From Litorivicinus sp. (GTDB lineage Bacteria; Pseudomonadota; Gammaproteobacteria; Pseudomonadales; Litorivicinaceae), in NCBI GenBank assembly GCA_018401755.1, contig JAGYKJ010000007.1:124001-188000 (forward strand): a DNA stretch of 64,000 bases. The letters run 5' to 3'. Position numbers and translations under genes: made by a program. This document shows, one piece after another, positions 26,834 to 37,295 of the stretch. The notes under the pieces were generated by a model that was not told the DNA's origin, made no database searches, and saw nothing but the letters and a program-made list of their open reading frames with translations. The first letter of the stretch is position 1; every line of letters begins with the position of its first letter.

Positions 26834-27173
26834 CGCGATGGCCCTTGTGTAGTTTTTGTAGGACCCACCCTGTGACCAATACGGTCAGCGCGGTTGAGCC
26901 AATCAGTGAGCCAAGGATGGCTTGCCACTCGTTACCCAAGAGTGCGAGGTGAGCAATCACTCCAACCCCAGCTGGCACGAAAAGTAATGACAGATGAGAC
27001 AGTAATCCAGTGGCTGTTTCATCCAACTTTCGAGGGATTTCCGGACGTCGCAGCAGGACCAGGATGAGCAAAAATAATCCAATCACAGGTCCGGGAATGG
27101 CGATATCAAAGGCGCGCGCAAGGATTTCGCCTAAGAGCTGAAACAGCAGTAAAACGGTGATTGATCCTAACAT
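26823..27173 (-). CDS. lrgA: LrgA/CidA-family holin-like protein
   Basis: 116 residues with four hydrophobic helices. The CidA/LrgA pattern is clear: LLFQLLGEILARAF, IPGPVIGLFLLILVLL, then the conserved LLSHLSLLFVPAGVGVI loop, and a basic tail. It probably oligomerises in the inner membrane and works with LrgB, either on murein hydrolase activity or on small organic acid transport. It overlaps both the upstream MFS gene (7 bp) and lrgB, so the three form one transcript. Confidence 0.93.
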   Translation of the reverse strand: MLGSITVLLLFQLLGEILARAFDIAIPGPVIGLFLLILVLLRRPEIPRKLDETATGLLSHLSLLFVPAGVGVIAHLALLGNEWQAILGSLIGSTALTVLVTGWVLQKLHKGHRDGA

Positions 27174-28318
27174 GGGCGTGTCTCTCGAGAGTCGTGAAGG
27201 CTGATGATCACTCCGACACAGAGTGCGATAGCCACGCCCAAAAAGCCAATATAGATGATCGACAGTCCTGCAGTCGCTGCTGTAAGACCCAGCAGAGCAG
27301 GAATTGCTGCTGCACCCAATGAGAACGCAACAATCTGTAGACTTGTGAGCGTCATGTGTTGCTGCCTCGGTACCATTTGGCTACCTAGACTGAGAAGGAA
27401 AGGGGCCAGGGGTGCCATCGCCAGCCCTGCGGTGGTCAGAGCGATGATTGCAAGAGCCGGGGAGGGCGCAACCAGCAAGCCAAGTAAAGTAAGGCAGAGG
27501 ACCACACTCGAGACGACCAAAAGTGTACGCTCTGTCATTGGGAGTAACCCAAGGGTAAAGCGTCCGACTGTCAGCGCTCCCCAGAAGAGACCGATGGCAA
27601 TACCTGTCAGGCCACCATCTAAAGAAAATTGATTCATTAATAGAGAGCCTGTCCAGTTGCCCACACTTTGCTCAAGGCCAACATATAAGGCACCGGATAC
27701 AATGACAGCAACGATTCCCAGCGACCATGTGATACGGTCGCTAGACTGATTTAGAGAAGCTAAAGGCTCGAGTACATCAAACCGCTGACGAATCCGAAAT
27801 AGCAGAGCAATACCGACAGCGCACAGTAAGGCACCCATTAGATAGGCGACAAACCATGGTGCTTTCAGATCCAGTGCGATCCCCGCAATAATGCCTGCCG
27901 TAGCCGTACCGATACCCCATGAACCATGCACGGTCATCAACTTTTTGGCGCCGATCCGCGGTCCGAAGTACCCATTCAAAGTGGCATGTGCCATCCCATT
28001 TGCAAGACCTCTCAACCCATAAAATATGGCAAGCCCAGCAATGGATGGAACAGTAAAGATCATGAGCATGAGACACATTTGCACCATCAAAGCGCCTCTT
28101 AGAACCACCAGCGGATGATAAGTGCGCGTGAGCCAAGGTGCGGTAACTGCGCCGAGGGCAGATCCAATCCCCATGAATCCGAGTATCCAGCCAAGTTGAT
28201 CAATCGATGCGTTCAGCGCAGTGTGCGCGGCGATCCATGCAACGCCAAGGATGCCATCAAAAAATCCCAGTGAGAGCATGCAGACACTAGAGACCATTCG
28301 CGGCGAGAGAGAACGCAC
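27167..28318 (-). CDS. MFS transporter (FucP/YbjJ-like)
   Basis: About 383 residues with 12 hydrophobic segments. A first-half loop FYGLRGLANGMAHATLNGYFGPRIGAKKL (in part: LRGLANGMAHATLN) resembles fucose-permease/YbjJ-type MFS proteins; GSWGIGTATAGIIAG is also family-like. The open frame continues backwards across tRNA-Arg, which cannot be coding. GTG at 28318 has AAGG nine bases upstream and gives a full-length MFS protein; ATG 28297 is the alternative. It is the first gene of the MFS-lrgA-lrgB unit. Substrate unknown. Confidence 0.8.
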   Translation of the reverse strand: MRSLSPRMVSSVCMLSLGFFDGILGVAWIAAHTALNASIDQLGWILGFMGIGSALGAVTAPWLTRTYHPLVVLRGALMVQMCLMLMIFTVPSIAGLAIFYGLRGLANGMAHATLNGYFGPRIGAKKLMTVHGSWGIGTATAGIIAGIALDLKAPWFVAYLMGALLCAVGIALLFRIRQRFDVLEPLASLNQSSDRITWSLGIVAVIVSGALYVGLEQSVGNWTGSLLMNQFSLDGGLTGIAIGLFWGALTVGRFTLGLLPMTERTLLVVSSVVLCLTLLGLLVAPSPALAIIALTTAGLAMAPLAPFLLSLGSQMVPRQQHMTLTSLQIVAFSLGAAAIPALLGLTAATAGLSIIYIGFLGVAIALCVGVIISLHDSRETRPC

Positions 28319-28357
28319 GATAATTCGCCTTAAGACACTGGGGATTGGGAAAACGCC

Positions 28358-28385
28358 TTGCAATTTACCAGAAAATTCGTAGTAT
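28358..28385 (+). promoter_or_regulatory. Promoter of tRNA-Arg(ACG)
   Basis: TTGCAA (28358-28363), a 16-base spacer and TAGTAT (28380-28385), placed 13 bases before the mature 5' end of the tRNA. A sigma70-type promoter with a GC-rich discriminator (GCGCGG), as is usual for stable RNA. Confidence 0.65.
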
Positions 28386-28398
28386 GCGCGGTCTTGAC

Positions 28399-28475
28399 GC
28401 GCTCGTAGCTCAGCTGGATAGAGTACCTGGCTACGAACCAGGCGGTCAGAGGTTCGAATCCTCTCGAGCGCGCCA
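28399..28475 (+). tRNA. tRNA-Arg(ACG)
   Basis: A 77-nt cloverleaf with encoded CCA. Acceptor GCGCTCG pairs with CGAGCGC. The anticodon stem CCTGG/CCAGG encloses CTACGAA, giving ACG (read as ICG, arginine CGN). The D-arm TAGCTCAGCTGGATAGAG and T-arm AGAGGTTCGAATCCTCT are canonical. Confidence 0.98.
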
Positions 28476-28490
28476 ACTTTTCTTGGTCTG

Positions 28491-28535
28491 TTCCGAGCAC
28501 ATAGGTAACAGATCATTCCGGGAACATGGGTAACA
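28491..28535. mobile_element. Insertion-sequence end-like direct repeats (remnant, no transposase)
   Basis: TTCCGAGCACATAGGTAACA (28491-28510) and TTCCGGGAACATGGGTAACA (28516-28535) match at 17 of 20 positions with a 25-bp period. Paired CATAGGTAACA-type repeats are reminiscent of the ends of some insertion-sequence families (IS481-like, from memory). No transposase frame is nearby, so this would be a decayed end just downstream of tRNA-Arg. Confidence 0.5.
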
Positions 28536-28541
28536 CTTTTG

Positions 28542-28600
28542 GGCTCTTCCCCATTAATGGGGGATGACGAATATTCACTAGACACGATTGATCACTCCGT
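28542..28600. repeat. 59-bp repeat copy B (inverted relative to copy A)
   Basis: Reverse complement of 25824-25882, 58 of 59 identical (single difference G/C in the GAATATT-GTCAT junction). Relative to the neighbouring tRNA genes both copies read the same way: the GGCTCTTCCCCATTAATGGG side faces the tRNA 3' end. It separates tRNA-Arg and the insertion-sequence-like repeats from the egtD/selenoneine gene block. Confidence 0.9.
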
Positions 28601-28695: not shown

Positions 28696-29658
28696 CTATG
28701 TCCTTGCGGTTGCCTTTAAAAGCAGGACGGCGAAGTGATTTTGAGCATCACACCAATATTGGGTTAATTGCCAACCCGCTTGTTTAGCGAGTTGCGAGAA
28801 GCCCTTAATCGTATACTTATGTGAAGTTTCTGTGTGAAAGCTTTCACCTGCAGCCAGCGTGTAAGTCTGGCCTGCAACCGCTAGTGTCTGATCGGTGAGT
28901 GCGACCAAGTGCATTTCGATTCGAGCGGGGTCTGTTAAATAGCGGGCCTCGTGAGCGAAGGCTTGCACATCAATCGCAAGTCCCAATTCGTGATTGATCC
29001 GCTTGAGCAAGTTGCGGTTAAATTCAGCTGTGACACCCTCGGGGTCATCATAAGCAGGAATCAACACCTCGGGCGATTTATCCAAATCAACACCAATTAA
29101 AAATGCAGCCTCATCACCCAAAACCTCGTGGCAGTGTTCCAACAAGGATTGCGCTTCTGACTCGGAGAGGTTGCCAATGGTTGAGCCTGGGAAGAAACCC
29201 AATCGATTGCGATGTGCAGGTAGTGACGGTGGAAGTGAAAACGCGGTGGTGAAGTCGGCAACCAACGCCATCACAGGTAGATTCGGTAGTTGTTTGGATA
29301 GGTCAGCTGCCGCTTGATGCAGGTAGTCAGCTGAAATATCGACTGGTATGTAGCCTGACGGCCGATCGAGAGCCTTGAGTAAAGGCACTGTTTTTCGGCT
29401 TGATCCGCTACCAAGTTCCACCACTAAACGATCAGAGCCAATGGCCTTGGCAATCGCGTCTAAATTTTCGTCAAGGATGCTAATTTCGGTTCGTGTTGGG
29501 TAGTAGCTCGGCAGTTGGGTGATGTCTTCGAAAAGTGCTGAGCCTCGTTGGTCGTAAAACCAGATCGGGGAGATGCGATGATCAGGTCGTATCAGTGCCT
29601 CAACAAGTGCTTGTTGCAGATCGTCAGCGTTGTTGGGTTCGGAGTTGGTTGGAAACAT
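28696..29658 (-). CDS. egtD: L-histidine N(alpha)-methyltransferase EgtD
   Basis: 320 residues. EgtD-family motifs: WFYDQRGSALFEDITQLPSYYPTRTE near residue 33 (in part: FYDQRGSALFEDIT, YYPTRTE), the SAM-binding ELGSGSSRKT (81-90), PVDIS, FFPGSTIGN and a C-terminal GESFHTETSHKY. EgtD trimethylates histidine to hercynine with three SAM. Here it is the last gene of a unit with a PhnCDE-like transporter and senA; hercynine is the acceptor for selenium in selenoneine synthesis. GAGG lies 10 bases before the ATG. No egtB/egtE for ergothioneine proper is seen. Confidence 0.93.
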   Translation of the reverse strand: MFPTNSEPNNADDLQQALVEALIRPDHRISPIWFYDQRGSALFEDITQLPSYYPTRTEISILDENLDAIAKAIGSDRLVVELGSGSSRKTVPLLKALDRPSGYIPVDISADYLHQAAADLSKQLPNLPVMALVADFTTAFSLPPSLPAHRNRLGFFPGSTIGNLSESEAQSLLEHCHEVLGDEAAFLIGVDLDKSPEVLIPAYDDPEGVTAEFNRNLLKRINHELGLAIDVQAFAHEARYLTDPARIEMHLVALTDQTLAVAGQTYTLAAGESFHTETSHKYTIKGFSQLAKQAGWQLTQYWCDAQNHFAVLLLKATART

Positions 29659-29670
29659 AACAAATGAGCC

Positions 29671-31191
29671 TCAAGGTTGGAGCGGTGTTTGTGTTGTTGG
29701 CGTTGTGCGTAACTGCAGCTGTCGCCGGATAGCGCGCGCTAGAGAATCAACCGCAATATTCAGCAGTGCGGTGATCAATATTAGTATCATGGCTCGATCA
29801 AAGCGCAGCTCTTGGATGGCACTGTCGACATAGAATCCAAGCGTTGTGATGCCTAAAATGCCAAGAATCGCGGTCTCGCGCATGATGATTTCCCAGCGGT
29901 AGAGTAAGAAGGCAAGAAACGATCGATAAAGCCGGGGTACCACTTCATAGATATAGCGATTAAAGCCACCAACGGCATCAGGTCTGAGTTTGAGCTCACT
30001 GCTCTGGCGGCCGATCAAGTGACCAATGATGGTGCCATTGTGAATAGCCAAGGCCACTACTGCTGGCAGCATGGAAGGCCCCCAGAGCTGAAGTAAGATG
30101 TAAGCGAGCAGATATTCAGGCACTGAACGGCCAATCACTAAAAGGCTATGCCCAGCTAATTGGCCACTGCGGCTAACAAACTGTCGCGAAATCAGGGGAA
30201 AGCTTAATAACGCAATGATACCAGTGCCCACCAGAGCAATCTGTGTGAGTACGATCGTAGTGCCGATCCCAGGTAACGCTTGGTACCAAAGTAAATCGCT
30301 TAACCATGGACCGAGGCCCGCTATCCCCTCGCCATTGCGCAGTGGCACGGGGATGATGTCTTCGGTGATGAAACGAGTGGCATTGCCCCAGACAATCGGC
30401 AGACCCGTACCCAGAAAAAACGGCGCGGCCAGCAGGTAAAGGATGACTAGTTTTGGACGGACCCAAAATCTTAGGCTGGCGATCGTGACTAAAAAAATCA
30501 CTAACAACATGCCAACTTCGCCGTATTGACCTTCTCCATAAGCACTCTCTAGGTAAAACCCAAGCGTTGGCATGCCGACAAAGCCAAGTACGGCGCTTGA
30601 GCGCATACCGCACTCAAACCGGTAGCTGATGTAGCTGATCAAGTGCGCCCATACATCGGGCACACGGGCATACCAAAACGTTGAAATAACACCGCTGCCA
30701 GCAGGTAGTGCCTTTACAGCGCGTTGATCACCCTCTTCGAGGATTTCACTGAAGACTCGGGCGAATATCGCGGCATAGGGTAGTGCGATGGCCAGAACCC
30801 CGGTGATGGGGTGCAGACCGAAAAACTGTAGGAAAATGAGTGCCCAAAAAAGTTCATGGATGGCGCGAATAAACGCACAAACAGCTTGCACAATGCGGTA
30901 ATGAAAAATAAAGGCCAAACCCATACCCAAAACGGCCGCAGCGCCGACGCCTGTAAACGCAAATGAAACTGTTCGGAGAAGTGCAACAATAGCGGTGTCA
31001 AAAGTCGCAAAGTCAGGTTGGATTAGACCATGGCCAAGACGAATCAACTCCGCCCATGGAGAGACGGATCGAATTTGAAGATCGGCCAACCAAACACAAA
31101 TCAGCGCTATTCCAAATAGCCATAGGCTGGTCCGTACCAAGGGCGCCGATAGTGCGTTCCATCTGGTTTTATCTTGGCTAGTAGAGTGCAT
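29671..31191 (-). CDS. PhnE-like fused double ABC permease (candidate selenium oxyanion transport)
   Basis: About 506 residues carrying two PhnE-like permease modules in tandem: the first with FIRAIHELFWALIFLQFFG, RAVKALPAGS and SSAVLGFVGMPTLGFYLESA, the second with GRSVPEYLLAYILLQLWGP, HNGTIIGHLIGR and RETAILGILGITTLGFYVDSA (each quoted in part). Duplicated PhnE chains occur in transporters labelled phosphonate or, in genomes with selD, putative selenate. ATG 31191 overlaps the phnC-like gene by 14 bp; the longer frame adds 15 residues. Co-transcription with senA and egtD argues for selenium rather than phosphonate. Confidence 0.8.
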   Translation of the reverse strand: MHSTSQDKTRWNALSAPLVRTSLWLFGIALICVWLADLQIRSVSPWAELIRLGHGLIQPDFATFDTAIVALLRTVSFAFTGVGAAAVLGMGLAFIFHYRIVQAVCAFIRAIHELFWALIFLQFFGLHPITGVLAIALPYAAIFARVFSEILEEGDQRAVKALPAGSGVISTFWYARVPDVWAHLISYISYRFECGMRSSAVLGFVGMPTLGFYLESAYGEGQYGEVGMLLVIFLVTIASLRFWVRPKLVILYLLAAPFFLGTGLPIVWGNATRFITEDIIPVPLRNGEGIAGLGPWLSDLLWYQALPGIGTTIVLTQIALVGTGIIALLSFPLISRQFVSRSGQLAGHSLLVIGRSVPEYLLAYILLQLWGPSMLPAVVALAIHNGTIIGHLIGRQSSELKLRPDAVGGFNRYIYEVVPRLYRSFLAFLLYRWEIIMRETAILGILGITTLGFYVDSAIQELRFDRAMILILITALLNIAVDSLARAIRRQLQLRTTPTTQTPLQP

Positions 31192-31828
31192 CGAGATCGT
31201 GGCTACTGACCGAATGACTCGGTAAATCGAGGGCAATGGTGCCGTTTTGAATGCCGATCAGCCGGCTCGCATACCGACGGGCTAAATCGAGATCATGCAT
31301 CGCAATGATGGTCGTGGTGTACTGTGTGGTGAGTGCTTGCATGACAGCTTCAGATCGTGGCCCATCGAGTGCTGAAACCGGTTCATCGGCCAAGAGCACG
31401 TCCCCACCTTGGAACAATGATCGGGCGACAGCCACACGCTGGCGCTGACCGCCCGAGAGCTCGCCGGCGCGAGTCCAAAGGGTTGGTAACATGTCTAGCT
31501 GTTCGAGTACGGCAGTCACCGCTAGGATTTGACGGCGGAATGGTCGAATGAGGTTGATTAAGTTGTAAGCACCTGAGTGCATGGGCAGTTGCCCCATGTA
31601 CACATTATGAAAAACGCTAAGCGTATCGACTAAGCCCAGGTTTTGCGGAATGAGCGCCATGTCGCGACGACGGCGATCAAGCAGCAACGATAGCAGCGTT
31701 GATTTACCCGCCCCACTGCGACCTACCAGCGCCACGTGCTCACCAGGCTTAATGATTAAATCAATGGGCCCTAAGACAGTGGTGCCGCCAAAATTAGCAT
31801 AGGCTTGATCGAGGATTAGGGCGCTCAT
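31178..31828 (-). CDS. PhnC-like ABC transporter ATP-binding protein, shortened
   Basis: 216 residues, against roughly 250-270 for usual PhnC. Walker A GRSGAGKST, Q-loop ALIPQNLGLVDTLS, signature LSGGQRQR, Walker B VLLADEPVSALDG and switch IAMHDLDLARR are intact. The segment between Walker A and the Q-loop is only LLSLLLDRRRRDM, missing about 25 residues that normally form a beta-rich part of the core domain. It overlaps the binding-protein gene by one base and the permease gene by 14. It energises the PhnDE-like proteins next to it. Confidence 0.82.
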   Translation of the reverse strand: MSALILDQAYANFGGTTVLGPIDLIIKPGEHVALVGRSGAGKSTLLSLLLDRRRRDMALIPQNLGLVDTLSVFHNVYMGQLPMHSGAYNLINLIRPFRRQILAVTAVLEQLDMLPTLWTRAGELSGGQRQRVAVARSLFQGGDVLLADEPVSALDGPRSEAVMQALTTQYTTTIIAMHDLDLARRYASRLIGIQNGTIALDLPSHSVSSHDLDALY

Positions 31829-32682
31829 CAGTCAATCAAGCCTACCTCTTGGGCGGTTCGCTTAATGGGCTCGTAATCTGAATTCTGGGCGGGGATAAAA
31901 GCGCTACGCGCAAAACTCTTGAGTAATGTCTTGTCATCCAGCGCTAATAGGGCACCTCTAACTTTTTCGGTAAATCCCGCTCCAAAACGCGCATCCACGT
32001 CTCCACGGATACTCCACTGATAGTTCGGATAAGCGGGGGTCTTCCAGATAATTTTGACGGCATCTGTGTCAATATTGCCCGCCGCAAGCTCTCGATCCCA
32101 AACGACGTAGTTGATGGCCCCCACGGCGTAGCTGCCACTTTCCACTAAGCGCAGAGTGCGACTGTGGTTGCCGCTGTAACCGACTCGCTCAAATACTTTA
32201 TTAGGTGACTCGCCAAACCGCTCAGTCAAATAAAACTCGGGAATCAGTCTGCCTGAGGTCGAGCTTTTCGAGCCAAATGTAAACGTCATGCCACGCATAC
32301 GTTCGTCAATGACATCACCGGCCTCCAGACCGGCGCTTTTATGTGCAATCAAGTAAGTCCAAAACGCTTGATCTTCGGTACCTTGTGCGAGGGCTTGCGA
32401 ATTTGGAACTCTGGCGCGTGCTTGGACACCGGATAACGCACCAAACCAAGCAAGTTGGACTTGATCATTACGAAATGCGCTCACTGCAGCAGCGTAAGAC
32501 TTCACAGGCACATAACGAACCTCAATATTGAGAGCTTTTGACAGGTATTCGCCCATTGGTCCAAAGCGCTCTTGAAGCTTACTTTCATCTTCATCGGGGA
32601 TGGCGGTAAAGACAAGCACTTGTGCGCTCGCGGGCAGTAACAGAAAAAGATTGAGAACGAATGCACATAAAAAGGCTTTCAT
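31828..32682 (-). CDS. PhnD-like substrate-binding protein (candidate selenate/selenite-binding)
   Basis: 284 residues with a signal peptide (MKAFLCAFVLNLFLLLPASAQ). PhnD-family elements: AIPDEDESKLQERFGPMGEYLS (in part: FGPMGEYLSKAL), VPVKSYAAAVSAFRNDQVQLAWFG, TFTFGSKSSTSGRLIPEFYL and GAINYVVWDRE. The SKSSTSG loop corresponds to the S-x-S-x-SG anion-binding motif. From memory, RefSeq names close relatives found beside selD as putative selenate ABC transporter binding protein. AAGGAAA precedes the ATG, 29 bp after senA. No Pho box is near, unlike the phosphorus loci of this window. Confidence 0.8.
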   Translation of the reverse strand: MKAFLCAFVLNLFLLLPASAQVLVFTAIPDEDESKLQERFGPMGEYLSKALNIEVRYVPVKSYAAAVSAFRNDQVQLAWFGALSGVQARARVPNSQALAQGTEDQAFWTYLIAHKSAGLEAGDVIDERMRGMTFTFGSKSSTSGRLIPEFYLTERFGESPNKVFERVGYSGNHSRTLRLVESGSYAVGAINYVVWDRELAAGNIDTDAVKIIWKTPAYPNYQWSIRGDVDARFGAGFTEKVRGALLALDDKTLLKSFARSAFIPAQNSDYEPIKRTAQEVGLID

Positions 32683-32711
32683 GGATGTTTCCTTAAGTTT
32701 GTGTGGTTAGC

Positions 32712-34034
32712 TCACAGAGCACAGGTGCGAAATCCAGCGATGATGTCGTTACGCTCTGGTGGGAAAAAATTACGTGTATTGTTGTTTAAATAGCGACTCC
32801 GCGTAGCCCAGGAGCCCCCGCGAAGCACAACGCGGCCGTCGGCAAACCAAGGTTCAGAGTACTCCGCATAGAGGTCCGCGCTGAAGCCAGGATAGGGTTC
32901 AAATAGGCTTGATGTCCATTGCCAAACATTGCCGAGCATTTGACGGCAACCCAGGGCGCTGTCACCGTCTGGATAGGCCGCCACATCGACACAACCCAGT
33001 CGATACCCATCAGTATTTGCCAGTGATCCATCCTGAGGTTCGTTACCCCACGGGTAGAGCGTTTTGTAAGCGCTGAGTGCGTGCCCCACGGCTTGTCGGC
33101 TTGCAGCCACTTCCCATTCGATTTCGGTCGGTAAGCGACGGCCTGCCCATTTGCAGTATGCGAGAGCTTCGTGCTGGCTGACGTGGCTGACTGGTGCATG
33201 AGGGGGCAAAGATTGCCAGCGGTCGAAGATACGGACTTGCCAACCCACATCATGACGGCGCCAGTAACGCGGGGCGGTAAGTGCTTCGGCATCGCGCCAG
33301 GCCCAGCCGAGGCTTGACCAATAGGAGGGGTTTTCATAACCGCCGGCCTCAACAAAACGCGCAAATGCGGTATTGGTAACTGGGGTGATATCAATCGTAA
33401 ATGAATCAAAGGCCCGCGTGTCAGTGGGTTTTTCATTGTCAAAACGAAAGCCAACGGTCTCATCTGCTCCGAGTGTGTGTTCTCCGCCAGGAATAAACAC
33501 TTCGCCATCTAGAGCGCCCACATTTAGAGAGGCCAAACCACCGATTGGAGGTGCGATTATAGGCGTTGGATCGGCTAAGGTCTGGCGCGTATAGGCAAAG
33601 GCTTCGCCGTGCATGTCCTCATGAAAGGTGGCCAGTTGCCAGACATAACTTGTGGAAGAATCGGTCAAGCCCTCTGGTAATTGACTCACCATAGCGTCAC
33701 GAACAGTGCGCAAGTAGTTGAACGTATCATCCATACTTGGTAGATCGAGCGTCCAACGTTTATCGTGTGCAACATCCATTGAATCGTAGAGCGCTTGGGC
33801 GTTTGCGATTTGATAGTTTGGCAAACCGTAGAGCTTATGAAGGACAAAATGATCATGGAAAAAACCGACATGACCAATCTCCCATTGAGGGGGATTGACG
33901 GTGCTAAGCTTCGGTCCCATGTGCCTTGTAATCGGCAAATCTTGCGTGAGCTCAAGTGTACGCTGCCGGGCATCATCAAGCATCGCAATCAGGGTATCGG
34001 AGGTTAAGCAATGAGTGGGTGGTGTAATAATCAT
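32712..34034 (-). CDS. senA: Selenoneine synthase SenA (EgtB-like nonheme iron enzyme)
   Basis: 440 residues. The N-terminal DinB-like domain supplies the iron ligands: His55 in WEIGHVGFFHDHF and the H-x3-H of FHEDMHGEAF (His138, His142). The C-terminal formylglycine-generating-enzyme-like domain reads GRRLPTEIEWEVA, YPWGNE, MLGNVWQWTSS and RGGSWATRSRYLNNNTRNFF (in part). EgtB joins hercynine to cysteine/gamma-Glu-Cys; SenA joins hercynine to a selenosugar. The SenA call rests on the adjacent senB and selD. ATG 34034 has GGAGAG five bases upstream; TTG 34049 is less likely. Confidence 0.85.
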   Translation of the reverse strand: MIITPPTHCLTSDTLIAMLDDARQRTLELTQDLPITRHMGPKLSTVNPPQWEIGHVGFFHDHFVLHKLYGLPNYQIANAQALYDSMDVAHDKRWTLDLPSMDDTFNYLRTVRDAMVSQLPEGLTDSSTSYVWQLATFHEDMHGEAFAYTRQTLADPTPIIAPPIGGLASLNVGALDGEVFIPGGEHTLGADETVGFRFDNEKPTDTRAFDSFTIDITPVTNTAFARFVEAGGYENPSYWSSLGWAWRDAEALTAPRYWRRHDVGWQVRIFDRWQSLPPHAPVSHVSQHEALAYCKWAGRRLPTEIEWEVAASRQAVGHALSAYKTLYPWGNEPQDGSLANTDGYRLGCVDVAAYPDGDSALGCRQMLGNVWQWTSSLFEPYPGFSADLYAEYSEPWFADGRVVLRGGSWATRSRYLNNNTRNFFPPERNDIIAGFRTCAL

Positions 34035-34060
34035 TGTGCTCTCCAGCAAGGTAATTGGTC

Positions 34061-35026
34061 ATGAAAGTGGCTTTGGTCACACCAGCACCACCGCGATCAC
34101 GTGCCGGTAACCGCGCGACAGCCGCACGTTGGTCCAGGCTTTTGCGAGCGGCTGGGTATCAGGTCGACATTCTCGAGCAGTGGGGTGCTGATGATCGATC
34201 GTATGATTTGATGATTGCCCTGCATGCTTGGCGCAGCGCAAGTAGCATCGCGGCATTTTCGCGGCGTTTTCCAGGTCGGCCTTTGATTGTAGTTCTCACC
34301 GGCACAGATATTTATCATTTTCAGCACACTCATCCTGAAGAGACACAAGCGAGCTTGCATCGCGCCAGCGCTTTGATAGGGTTGCATGATCATGTCGCTC
34401 AAGATATTCCTTCGACTTATCACGCGAGATTGCACATTGTTCATCAATCGGCACAGCCTTTGCCGGCCAGCTACCCTGGGCCATCGGTGCGGCGTTTCAC
34501 GTTGTGTGTGGTGGGTCATTTGCGTGAAGAAAAAGATAGTTTGCGTGCCGCTGATGCCGCACGTCTGTTGCCGGCGGAGTCGCGCATCCAAATCATTCAC
34601 GCTGGACGCTCGCACACTCCAGACTGGGCGCTTGCGGCACAAGCACAGATGAGGGATAACGAGCGGTATAGCTGGTTGGGTGAGGTCTCGCAAACGGTCA
34701 TTCGTCGTTTGTACGCGCGAAGTCAGGCCATGGTGATCAGTTCTCTCATGGAGGGTGGCGCTAATGTGGTCTCGGAGGCTTGTGTGGCAGGTCTGCCGGT
34801 CATCGCTAGCGATATTCCGGGTAACACTGGATTGCTTGGGCAAGATTATCCTGGTCTTTTCCCCGCGGGCGATTCGGCTGCTTTGGCGAAGTTGATGGCA
34901 AGATTTGAGTCTGATTTGGCGCTTCGAGCCGCATTGACTGATCGGTGTTGTGCACAGGCACGACGCCATACGCCAGAGGCTGAACGAGCAGGTTTGTTGG
35001 CAGTAATCCATGGGGCTAGTCTCTGA
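34061..35026 (+). CDS. senB: Selenosugar synthase SenB (glycosyltransferase-like)
   Basis: 321 residues, a GT-B-like protein. N-terminal KVALVTPAPPRSRAGNRATAARWSRLLR (in part: TPAPPRSRAGNRATAARW) is typical of the SenB/TIGR04348 family. Next come LIALHAWRS-like MIALHAWRSASS, VVLTGTDIYHF and, in the nucleotide-binding half, VVGHLREEKDSLRAADAARLLP (in part), SSLMEGGANVVSEACVAGLPV and SDIPGNTGLLG. SenB makes 1-seleno-N-acetylglucosamine from UDP-GlcNAc and selenophosphate. It is divergent from senA with only 26 bp between start codons and overlaps the 3' end of selD by 11 bp. Confidence 0.86.
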   Translation: MKVALVTPAPPRSRAGNRATAARWSRLLRAAGYQVDILEQWGADDRSYDLMIALHAWRSASSIAAFSRRFPGRPLIVVLTGTDIYHFQHTHPEETQASLHRASALIGLHDHVAQDIPSTYHARLHIVHQSAQPLPASYPGPSVRRFTLCVVGHLREEKDSLRAADAARLLPAESRIQIIHAGRSHTPDWALAAQAQMRDNERYSWLGEVSQTVIRRLYARSQAMVISSLMEGGANVVSEACVAGLPVIASDIPGNTGLLGQDYPGLFPAGDSAALAKLMARFESDLALRAALTDRCCAQARRHTPEAERAGLLAVIHGASL

Positions 35027-37295
35027 GTAAAATCGGTTCGAGAGCATCGCCCTGCGGATGAATGGTGCCAATGATGCAGGTGCGGGGGTAACCGAGCGCA
35101 ATGAGCTCTCGCACACAAGCATCCGCCTGGTTTGCAGGGATGCTGGCCAATAAGCCGCCCGCAGTTTGTGGGTCAAATATCAGGGGATAGCGGGGATGAT
35201 TGACCGTGACCTTTGCATCGCGAATCGCCCGACGTAAACGCACATTGGCGGGTTGTAATGAACTCAGGATACCTGCTGCCACGGTTTCTTCGGCCCCGTC
35301 TAAAATCGGTAGTGCGGACAGATAGAGGGTGGCGTCTACTCCTGAGGGCCGTGTCATTTCAACCAAGTGCCCCAGTAACCCAAACCCGGTCAAATCCGTG
35401 CACGCAGTGGCCCCGAACCGACGCAGGCACTCCGCTCCCAAACGATTCGAGTGACGCATTGATTGCAATGCGTCATCAATCCAGCGTCCCTTGGCTTCAA
35501 GACGTGCATGCGCGGCAAACAGCGTACCGGTGCCGATGGGCTTTGTCAGAATTAAGACATCGCCCGGGCACATGCCCCCTTTGCGCATGACGTGGTCCGG
35601 TCGGTCATCGATTAGACCGTTGATGGCAAAGCCCAAGGCAAGTTCTTGGCCTTCGCCAGTGTGTCCCCCAACGAGCGCACAGTTGGCTTCGTTGAGTATC
35701 TCTATGGCACCCGACATCATCTGATACAGAGTATCTTCGACCTTGGATTCAAGCCCCTGTGGCACGGTTGCAATGGCGGTCGCGGATTGCGCTTCGGCGC
35801 CCATGGCAAAGATATCGCCAAGGGCGTGGTTAGCTGCGATTTGCCCGAAGATGAAGGGGTCGTCGATAAACGAGCGAAAGAAGTCAACCGAGTGCACCAT
35901 GGCCTTACCAGGGGGCACCCGAACGACAGCGGCATCATCAGGCGCGTGCAGTCCGATCACCACATCATCGCGCTCGACGGGACGTAGCGCACCCAGCGCT
36001 CGTGATAGCGTTGTGGCACCAACTTTTGCGCCGCAGCCACCACAGCGCATGGCAATTGCTGAAATGGCCTGTTGGGCTTCTTCGCCGGCCAATGCGACTG
36101 TCGAGCGGGGCGCTGAGTTTGGTTTCTCTTGCATCGCTGGTAAGTCATTAAACTTGGACATGAAGCGTCGGTCGATGTGGTCTTTCCAGCGCCACAGCCA
36201 AGCGCCAGCCGCCGAGAAATCACCGCGGGACGCGACCGCATATTGATTACCCGTACTGATCAGCGCTAGCCAGCGACGCTGCGGGTAATAGTTGCGTAGC
36301 GGTTTGTCCTCTAGCGATAAGCGCAGATTACGCGCCAGTGGCGGGCCCTGACGCACGGCAAAGACGCCCGCTTTTTCGCGGGGATGGTTGATCATGGTCG
36401 CAATGTCACCTGCCGCAAAAATATGAGGATCAGTGACTGTTTGCAGGGTGTCGGTGACTTGAATAAACCCATCGGCATCAAGTGCCAGACCTGTGTCTTG
36501 CAGCCAACTTGCGCCACCAGCACGGGTGACCCAAATCACTTCGTCGGCTAAATGATGTTCGCCGTTGCTGGTTGTTAACCCTTGCTCGTCAACGGCTGTC
36601 ACGGCGGCATTGATATGCAGGCTCACGCCACGGGCTTGCAACGTGCGCGTAAAGCGCTGCTGTACCCGGTGACTGTGGGTGGGCAAGATGGTTGTACCGC
36701 GGGTAAATAAGCTAAATTTGAGTGCGTTTGGGTCTTGGCCAAGACGTTTTAATTGGTGACACAGACGGTATTGCATGGCGAGCAGCAGTTCCACTCCGCC
36801 CGCGCCGCCGCCCACCAGGGCAATGTGCATCGGTCCTGGTCGCGTTTGTACTCGCGCCAGCAGCGCCAGCCAGCGTGCGTTGAATTGATTGATGGGTTTA
36901 ACAGCGACGGCGCGGGTGCTCTGACTGCCAGCGTCGGTGAGCTTGGGCGTCGAACCAATATTGATCGAAAGCCGGTCATAGCGCACGGCGGGTCGATCAT
37001 GACAGAGGACTTGGTGGGTGCGCCGATCAAGACCCACGACTTCACTGCGAAAAAACCGTGCGCCGGCAAACTCCGCCAATCGGCGCAAATCAATGTGAAC
37101 GTCGTCGTAGGTATAATGACCCGCAACATAGCCAGGTAACATGCCGGAGTAGGGCGTGTGCGTATCGCGGCAAACCACGGTCAGGCGAACGCCTGGCATG
37201 GGCTTCATTGCAAAATTTCGAAGCACGCCCACATGGGTGTGGCCGCCACCGACCAGGACAATGTCGCGTAAGACTGGCTGCGTGATCTGTTTCAT
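35016..37295 (-). CDS. selD: Fused FAD-dependent oxidoreductase-selenide, water dikinase (SelD/SenC)
   Basis: 759 residues. Residues 1-380 form an NDH-2-like flavoprotein: VLVGGGHTHVGVL (FAD site, 13-25), ALVGGGAGGVEL (second nucleotide site, 159-170) and IFAAGDIAT (292-300). From about 410 comes SelD, with the active-site CGAK (Cys421, Lys424), APDDAAVV, GHTGEGQEL and TDLTGFGLLGHLVEM. SelD makes selenophosphate from selenide and ATP; the oxidoreductase part may supply or protect the selenide. This fusion is known. With senA and senB adjacent it fills the SenC role. GAGGGA precedes the ATG. No selA/selB or SelU is in the window. Confidence 0.92.
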   Translation of the reverse strand: MKQITQPVLRDIVLVGGGHTHVGVLRNFAMKPMPGVRLTVVCRDTHTPYSGMLPGYVAGHYTYDDVHIDLRRLAEFAGARFFRSEVVGLDRRTHQVLCHDRPAVRYDRLSINIGSTPKLTDAGSQSTRAVAVKPINQFNARWLALLARVQTRPGPMHIALVGGGAGGVELLLAMQYRLCHQLKRLGQDPNALKFSLFTRGTTILPTHSHRVQQRFTRTLQARGVSLHINAAVTAVDEQGLTTSNGEHHLADEVIWVTRAGGASWLQDTGLALDADGFIQVTDTLQTVTDPHIFAAGDIATMINHPREKAGVFAVRQGPPLARNLRLSLEDKPLRNYYPQRRWLALISTGNQYAVASRGDFSAAGAWLWRWKDHIDRRFMSKFNDLPAMQEKPNSAPRSTVALAGEEAQQAISAIAMRCGGCGAKVGATTLSRALGALRPVERDDVVIGLHAPDDAAVVRVPPGKAMVHSVDFFRSFIDDPFIFGQIAANHALGDIFAMGAEAQSATAIATVPQGLESKVEDTLYQMMSGAIEILNEANCALVGGHTGEGQELALGFAINGLIDDRPDHVMRKGGMCPGDVLILTKPIGTGTLFAAHARLEAKGRWIDDALQSMRHSNRLGAECLRRFGATACTDLTGFGLLGHLVEMTRPSGVDATLYLSALPILDGAEETVAAGILSSLQPANVRLRRAIRDAKVTVNHPRYPLIFDPQTAGGLLASIPANQADACVRELIALGYPRTCIIGTIHPQGDALEPILLRD

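Follow-up and report, generated by a model that had tools for sequence, protein, structure and literature searches.

The described systems closest to the locus analysed here are, for biosynthesis, the selenoneine pathway of Variovorax paradoxus, comprising SenA, SenB and SenC (SelD), and, for transport, PhnD1 of marine picocyanobacteria (structures 7s6g, 5lq5 and 5lq8), to which transport of phosphite or phosphate has been ascribed (PMC10284923, PMC5700983). In a 64,000-nucleotide stretch of Litorivicinus sp. DNA (contig JAGYKJ010000007.1, positions 124,001 to 188,000), termed the window in the following, SenA, SenB and SelD are found together, each above its NCBIfam cut-off as a counterpart of the V. 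paradoxus pathway; unlike there, the window adds egtD and a three-gene ATP-binding cassette (ABC) importer, and its SelD is fused to an oxidoreductase. The binding protein of this importer has PhnD1 as its best match in sequence and fold. We propose that the three-gene unit probably imports an inorganic oxyanion of selenium, selenite being likelier than selenate, and would serve the general supply of SelD and not selenoneine synthesis exclusively.

The TIGR04553 importer and its association with selD

The window binding protein matched the NCBIfam model TIGR04553 over its whole length and above the cut-off (Table 1), whereas its score of 143.1 bits with the PhnD model TIGR03431 fell short of the cut-off of 261.1; permease and ATPase were below the equivalog cut-offs of true PhnE and PhnC. 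TIGR04553 is a hypothetical equivalog carrying the name putative selenate ABC transporter component, so that the selenium idea, presented as new in the original prediction, already exists as a hypothetical NCBIfam name. We depart from that name in that our data suggest a supply of SelD in general and, by analogy, selenite as the ion. In the literature, the full TIGR04553 product name was encountered in PMC13077682, where the annotation is repeated and export is guessed; 'selenate ABC transporter' denotes the sulfate/selenite/selenate transporter of Escherichia coli in PMC3781023 and is a product label in PMC9426549. In a sample of 299 Pseudomonadota genomes, the family was sharply bounded, with 25 matches in 24 genomes scoring at least 326.6 bits and the next match scoring 171.2 bits. 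As its family already has a name, if a hypothetical one, and its gene set is recurrent, the window importer is ordinary in its membership.

The association with selenium genes was evaluated by comparing the 24 member genomes with the remaining 275. SelD above the cut-off was present in 22 of the 24 versus 62 of the 275 (Fisher p = 1.4 × 10−11; 4 × 10−11 without the window), where this and the other p values are indicative only and overstate independence, as the sampled genomes are related. In genomes with SelD, 10 of 23 TIGR04553 members, the window among them, had selD at a distance of no more than 10 kb (9 of 22 if the window is left out), compared with 0 of 61 non-member proteins from a set of 125 PhnD-like non-members among the matches listed (p = 4 × 10−7 with and 1.5 × 10−6 without the window). 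Profile searches for SelA, SelU, SenB and PhnJ, covering 80 of 86 chosen genomes including all 24 member genomes, revealed SelU in 21, SelA in 13 and SenB in 6 of the latter. Wherever importer and SenB occurred in one genome, they were at most 8 kb apart (6 of 6), so the link between them is real, and SenB was also found in 4 of 56 tested non-member genomes. SenA exceeded its cut-off in 8 of the 299 genomes, five of which possess the importer (p = 1 × 10−4).

A second sample, made up of the best 80 of 583 confirmed named relatives and thus biased toward the window's own subclade, gave a concordant picture. Within the fetched stretches, 78 cases had the ATPase and 76 the permease; selD was found in 40 (29 of them oxidoreductase-SelD fusions), senB in 23, senA in 10 and egtD in 6. 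Of the 40 relatives without a complete selD nearby, 38 encode it elsewhere in the genome, giving a total of 78 out of 80; the exceptions are metagenome-assembled genomes of Sedimenticola (L152) and of an alphaproteobacterium (L154), the locus of the latter stopping just past the start of an oxidoreductase half. The relatives fall into clade A, with 50–70% identity to the window binding protein and a fused permease, and clade B, with 36–39% identity and mostly two permease genes, although one long open reading frame (ORF) is present in L070 and L073. Both sen and selD genes were found with split (L080, L083) and fused (L116, L134) permeases and in varied gene orders, which argues for a functional coupling of the genes, as judged from their arrangement, rather than for one inherited block. 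Many genomes combine the importer with selD and/or sen genes, so that the arrangement is more than chance. As anticipated in the original prediction, the importer is, by its selD association and its TIGR04553 membership, a strong selenium candidate.

The same data disagree with the original view of an importer reserved for selenoneine, which was rejected as an exclusive role: SelU, for tRNA selenouridine, is encoded in the host genome, whose sole SelD above the cut-off is the fusion, and SenB is missing from 18 of the 24 member genomes, 16 of which possess SelA and/or SelU. No SelA was found in the host genome (2.19 Mb, 7 contigs) by profile search. The original prediction would have been refuted by a clade mainly adjoining carbon–phosphorus (C-P) lyase genes; this was not the case, with PhnJ in 2 of the 24 member genomes and in neither of them within 10 kb of the member.

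Family membership, gene order and selD association are read directly from the sequences, whereas the substrate, direction of transport, redox steps and products set out here are inferred. The selenium oxyanion would be captured in the periplasm by the binding protein and imported through the fused two-half permease, driven by the short ATPase. Inside the cell, it would be reduced to selenide, perhaps with help from the oxidoreductase fused to SelD, and SelD would turn selenide into selenophosphate. From there, selenophosphate would be passed to SenB and SenA for selenoneine, with hercynine provided by EgtD, and also to SelU for tRNA selenouridine.

Binding pocket and competing substrates

Among solved chains, the nearest by sequence were PhnD1 of Synechococcus MITS9220 (7s6g, 226.7 bits) and of Prochlorococcus MIT9301 (5lq5, 196.9 bits), and the predicted structure of the window protein (mean predicted local distance difference test score of 92.1) gave 7s6g, 5lq8 and 5lq5 as top fold matches. 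Both PhnD1 chains pass TIGR04553 (7s6g, 335.6 bits; 5lq5, 301.6 bits), whereas the phosphite binder PtxB fails (5o2j, 166.4 bits; 5jvb, 152.6 bits). A 44-sequence tree placed PhnD1 with clade A (support 92/98) inside the family (87/76), while PtxB and the remaining PhnD-like proteins fell outside; the 87/76 value is moderate, and 5lq5 was flagged for its long branch and atypical composition.

Eleven ligand-contact positions are listed for 7s6g in PMC10284923 (section 7), nine of which are kept in the window protein, while T65 is replaced by Ser and D203 by Asn. In an alignment of 69 member rows, some of them near copies and the window included, Y44, S124-T125-S126 and H156 were kept in all rows and Y204 in 68; at position 203, 59 rows have Asp and 10 have Asn, and at position 174, 65 rows have Asn. 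PtxB and HtxB, binders of phosphite and hypophosphite, share the fold, and PtxB has the same site of Tyr, STS, His and capping Tyr; the three PtxB sequences, however, have Gln at position 203 and Ser or Ala at position 174 as opposed to the Asp/Asn and Asn of the members. The arsenite and arsenate binders AioX and ArrX have the same fold and bind non-phosphorus oxyanions, but are only 17–19% identical. We take AioX and ArrX to be sensory partners and not importers. TIGR04553-type binding proteins with no ATPase or permease detected alongside were seen in L086, L126 and L168, the last adjoining a CheA-like kinase with a cyclic-nucleotide domain; by analogy with AioX and ArrX, these proteins could be sensory.

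An unlikely alternative is transport of a phosphorus compound. The cargo would then be phosphite, phosphate or a small phosphonate, in line with the fold of the binding protein and with the proposal for picocyanobacterial PhnD1, and the selenium-gene setting would be incidental. The nearest structures have phosphate, phosphite or methylphosphonate bound, the contact residues are almost invariant in the family, and in Pseudomonas putida a 'Phosphonate/selenate ABC transporter periplasmic phosphonate-binding protein' increased about three-fold, from 0.309 to 0.959% of the exoproteome, upon phosphate depletion (PMC9426549, table 1). Against this stand the association of TIGR04553 with selD, the presence in the host genome of three other PhnD-like binding proteins, each with adjoining permease genes and one above the PhnD cut-off, and the properties of PhnD1 itself, which is not induced by phosphate starvation and occurs in strains without known phosphite or phosphonate enzymes, two tested strains being unable to grow on these compounds (PMC10284923). 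A main role in phosphonate use via C-P lyase was rejected on linkage, while the biochemistry keeps phosphorus import as a rival. In agreement with the original prediction that no C-P lyase lies near, the single PhnJ detected in the host genome is encoded on another contig (C2), with the PhnD above the cut-off on C4, and the 20 kb around phnJ (L182) contained no match to the window importer proteins above the thresholds used. Within 10 kb of phnJ, 0 of 2 members versus 10 of 21 non-members among the matches listed were found in the 80 genomes searched. Regarding the Pho box, its absence before the importer, as noted originally, was reproduced, none of the consensus matches lying at 28–38 kb; the contrast drawn with other loci of the window carries little weight, as the 9 matches in the whole window compare with 6.5 expected by chance. 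With the scan at chance level, the Pho-box argument was not used in either direction.

Selenate, in accordance with the NCBIfam name, would be a variant of the proposed selenium import and does not exclude it, yet we regard it as doubtful. The name belongs to a hypothetical equivalog, for which no measurement was found in the literature searched, and the solved members favour three-oxygen phosphite over four-oxygen phosphate six-fold or more. Because selenite, like phosphite, has three oxygens, the phosphite-preferring PhnD1 pocket, which disfavours a fourth oxygen, would by analogy suit trigonal selenite better than tetrahedral selenate. Salvage of hercynine, ergothioneine, selenoneine or some organic selenium compound, as might be read from an importer flanked by egtD and senA in the window and adjoining egtD in Litoricola L096, appears very improbable, given the many member genomes with SelA and/or SelU in which SenB is absent and given pocket residues and a capping tyrosine that make up a small-oxyanion site.

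Several observations weigh against import of a selenium oxyanion. In the literature searched, mostly outside subscription journals, no study of selenium binding or transport was found for the TIGR04553 family. Phosphorus binding is a fact, as solved members hold phosphate, phosphite or methylphosphonate (PMC10284923, PMC5700983), and in the ligand screen of PMC10284923 the melting point rose only with phosphorus-source mixtures. The P. putida rise would be a phosphate response if the labelled protein is a TIGR04553 member; several non-phosphate proteins in the same table also went up about two-fold (PMC9426549, table 1). The window pocket is not identical to that of PhnD1, with Asn203 instead of the usual Asp203. 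Importers are lacking from 62 of the 84 SelD genomes and likewise from the E. coli control; SelD function needs no such importer. Conversely, selD is lacking from two of the 24 member genomes, namely G143, whose member has no ATPase or permease detected in the roughly 10 kb around it, and G263, which has a completeness of 78%. In the SAR324 phylum, SelD was present in 13 of 14 member genomes versus 30 of 38 others (p = 0.41), a test without power, since 43 of the 52 genomes have selD. The phnJ contrast, with two members only, is not significant alone (p = 0.49). Finally, one of 10 proteins scanned, a neighbour in L143, is TmpA-like (phosphonate dioxygenase family; 396.6 bits, cut-off 400), and TauD-type dioxygenases made up 2 of the 123 neighbouring proteins of the tally described below.

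Layout of the locus and the selenoneine set

All seven genes named in the original prediction were recovered at their positions, with profile matches and coordinates in agreement (Table 1). The minus-strand genes form a tight unit, as predicted, with 29 bp between senA and the binding-protein gene, 12 bp between the permease gene and egtD, and overlaps between the remaining neighbours.

Table 1. Genes at positions 28,696 to 37,295 of the window, with profile scores in bits.
Gene or product	Position	Strand	Evidence
egtD, histidine N-alpha-methyltransferase, makes hercynine	28696..29658	-	TIGR03438 370.6 (cut-off 290.9); Pfam Methyltransf_33
PhnE-like permease, two halves in one chain, 521 residues	29671..31236	-	TIGR01097 201.5 in two stretches, just below cut-off 216.7
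PhnC-like ABC ATPase, short, 216 residues	31178..31828	-	TIGR02315 161.7 (below cut-off 266.1); ABC_tran 78.6
TIGR04553-family periplasmic binding protein, 284 residues, putative selenium oxyanion binder	31828..32682	-	TIGR04553 393.6 (cut-off 250)
senA, selenoneine synthase	32712..34049	-	NF041186 474.6 (cut-off 420); likely ATG 34034
senB, selenosugar synthase	34055..35026	+	TIGR04348 392.4 (cut-off 300); likely ATG 34061
NAD(P)H/FAD oxidoreductase-SelD fusion, selenophosphate synthetase, 759 residues, convergent with senB	35016..37295	-	TIGR03169 507.4 (cut-off 310); TIGR00476 287.6 (cut-off 125)

The likely start codons of the divergent senA and senB genes are only 26 bp apart, so their promoters must sit within the opposite genes or elsewhere; a scan of positions 33800–34300 for sigma-70-like promoters yielded none. 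The permease ORF opens with TTG inside the overlap with the ATPase gene, and its real start is perhaps later. As read from the sequence, the ATPase is shorter than PhnC by about 25–30 residues between Walker A and Q-loop, and its length is common among clade A relatives (214–236 residues). Walker A, signature, Walker B and the switch His are, by what we take these motifs to be, all present. Downstream of egtD, a major facilitator superfamily ORF (27167–28585, minus strand) overruns the opposite-strand tRNA-Arg gene (28399–28475, plus strand) by its mechanically called start, the real start being probably later.

Comparison with solved structures supports the assignments of the pathway genes. 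All six solved sequences matched by EgtD are EgtD, and its active-site and histidine-binding residues, as we assume them to be, are kept; SenB matches solved SenB (8fbx, 8jjn). The oxidoreductase-SelD protein was also matched to solved SelD relatives and scored 472.3 bits, below the cut-off of 700, with the fusion model TIGR04369 ('fusion_not_SelD'). In its glycine-rich loop, GGCGAK aligns with AGCGCK of 3u0o, so that Cys and Lys are present. These presumably correspond to Cys17 and Lys20, the catalytic Cys and the Lys of the glycine-rich loop in E. coli SelD.

Solved relatives of the synthase comprise OvsA, SenA and EgtB, the nearest being OvsA, which belongs to ovoselenol synthesis (302 bits, against 229 bits for SenA), from which ovoselenol could be taken for the product; ovoselenol is mentioned in passing in PMC13188914. 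We nevertheless consider it quite improbable that the gene set yields ovoselenol. The synthase passes the SenA model, egtD sits in its own unit, and at the residues in which the OvsA chains 8u41 and 8ux5 differ it carries the letters YS and RNFF as in solved SenA, where 8u41, which we infer to be the natural OvsA sequence rather than 8ux5, has MS and RQAY. Judged from these residues and the gene order, selenoneine is the likelier product.

The closest named relative among the matches listed is an uncultured Litoricola with an 87% identical binding protein, whose locus (L096) has the order binding protein, ATPase, permease, egtD. Neighbours of 35 of the 80 relatives, those without nearby selD or senB matches, were tallied by Pfam family; the tally covers 123 of 128 selected proteins, omitting egtD of L096, one protein each of L141 and L146 and two of L159, and some of the mechanically called ORFs are possibly spurious. 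The tally added no new selenium gene, and no C-P lyase family was among those listed, 25 of 147. The top families were G6PD and an RpiR-type regulator with six members each, probably reflecting local synteny. In L085 (G271), two TIGR04553 binding-protein genes lie in tandem before a single ATPase and permease, with a divergent selD 275 bp away. In Halomonas sp. McH1-25 (L108, 7687–9837), a VTT (DedA/TVP38-type) domain is fused to a pyridine nucleotide-disulphide oxidoreductase directly upstream of the importer.

Relation to picocyanobacterial PhnD1

PhnD1 presents a puzzle of its own. All 97 picocyanobacterial genomes in the Cyanorak database encode it, phosphate starvation does not induce it, no known enzymes for phosphite or phosphonate use occur in the four strains studied, and neither of the two strains tested grew on phosphite or methylphosphonate (PMC10284923). 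Dissociation constants of 0.05–4.3 µM for phosphite and 7–182 µM for phosphate are given, in a printed table that includes values from other papers and shows the phosphite preference of six-fold or more; the authors call the binding of phosphite and methylphosphonate fortuitous and propose a phosphate transporter (PMC10284923). In the accessible main text of that paper, as distinct from its supplementary ligand list, the string 'selen' is absent, and selenium anions are not discussed there.

In early genomes, which do not amount to all 97, Prochlorococcus marinus and Synechococcus species were reported to carry SelD with an N-terminal NADH-dehydrogenase-like extension, and every ybbB-containing organism, cyanobacteria included, to have selD (PMC1273633). 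Prochlorococcus W7–W9 are listed with SelD and no known selenium trait (PMC5029168). The picocyanobacteria of PMC1273633 would thus share the set of the window, namely a TIGR04553 importer, an oxidoreductase-SelD fusion and a selenium sink. We consider it an even call that the whole TIGR04553 clade, PhnD1-PhnC1-PhnE1 included, fills the place of a missing importer with high affinity for selenium, probably in the form of selenite, that the binding of phosphite by PhnD1 is a by-product of a pocket for three-oxygen anions, and that the set of importer, oxidoreductase-SelD fusion and selenouridine and/or selenoneine sink recurs in marine bacteria.

The analysis turns a family name into a supported general hypothesis, tied to the PhnD1 question, and makes TIGR04553 a concrete candidate selenium importer for which structures have already been solved. 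If the proposal is true, a 'phosphonate' transporter of the marine picocyanobacterial core genome would be misassigned, which would affect the reading of phnD genes and transcripts as phosphorus markers and our picture of how scarce selenium is shared out in the surface ocean.

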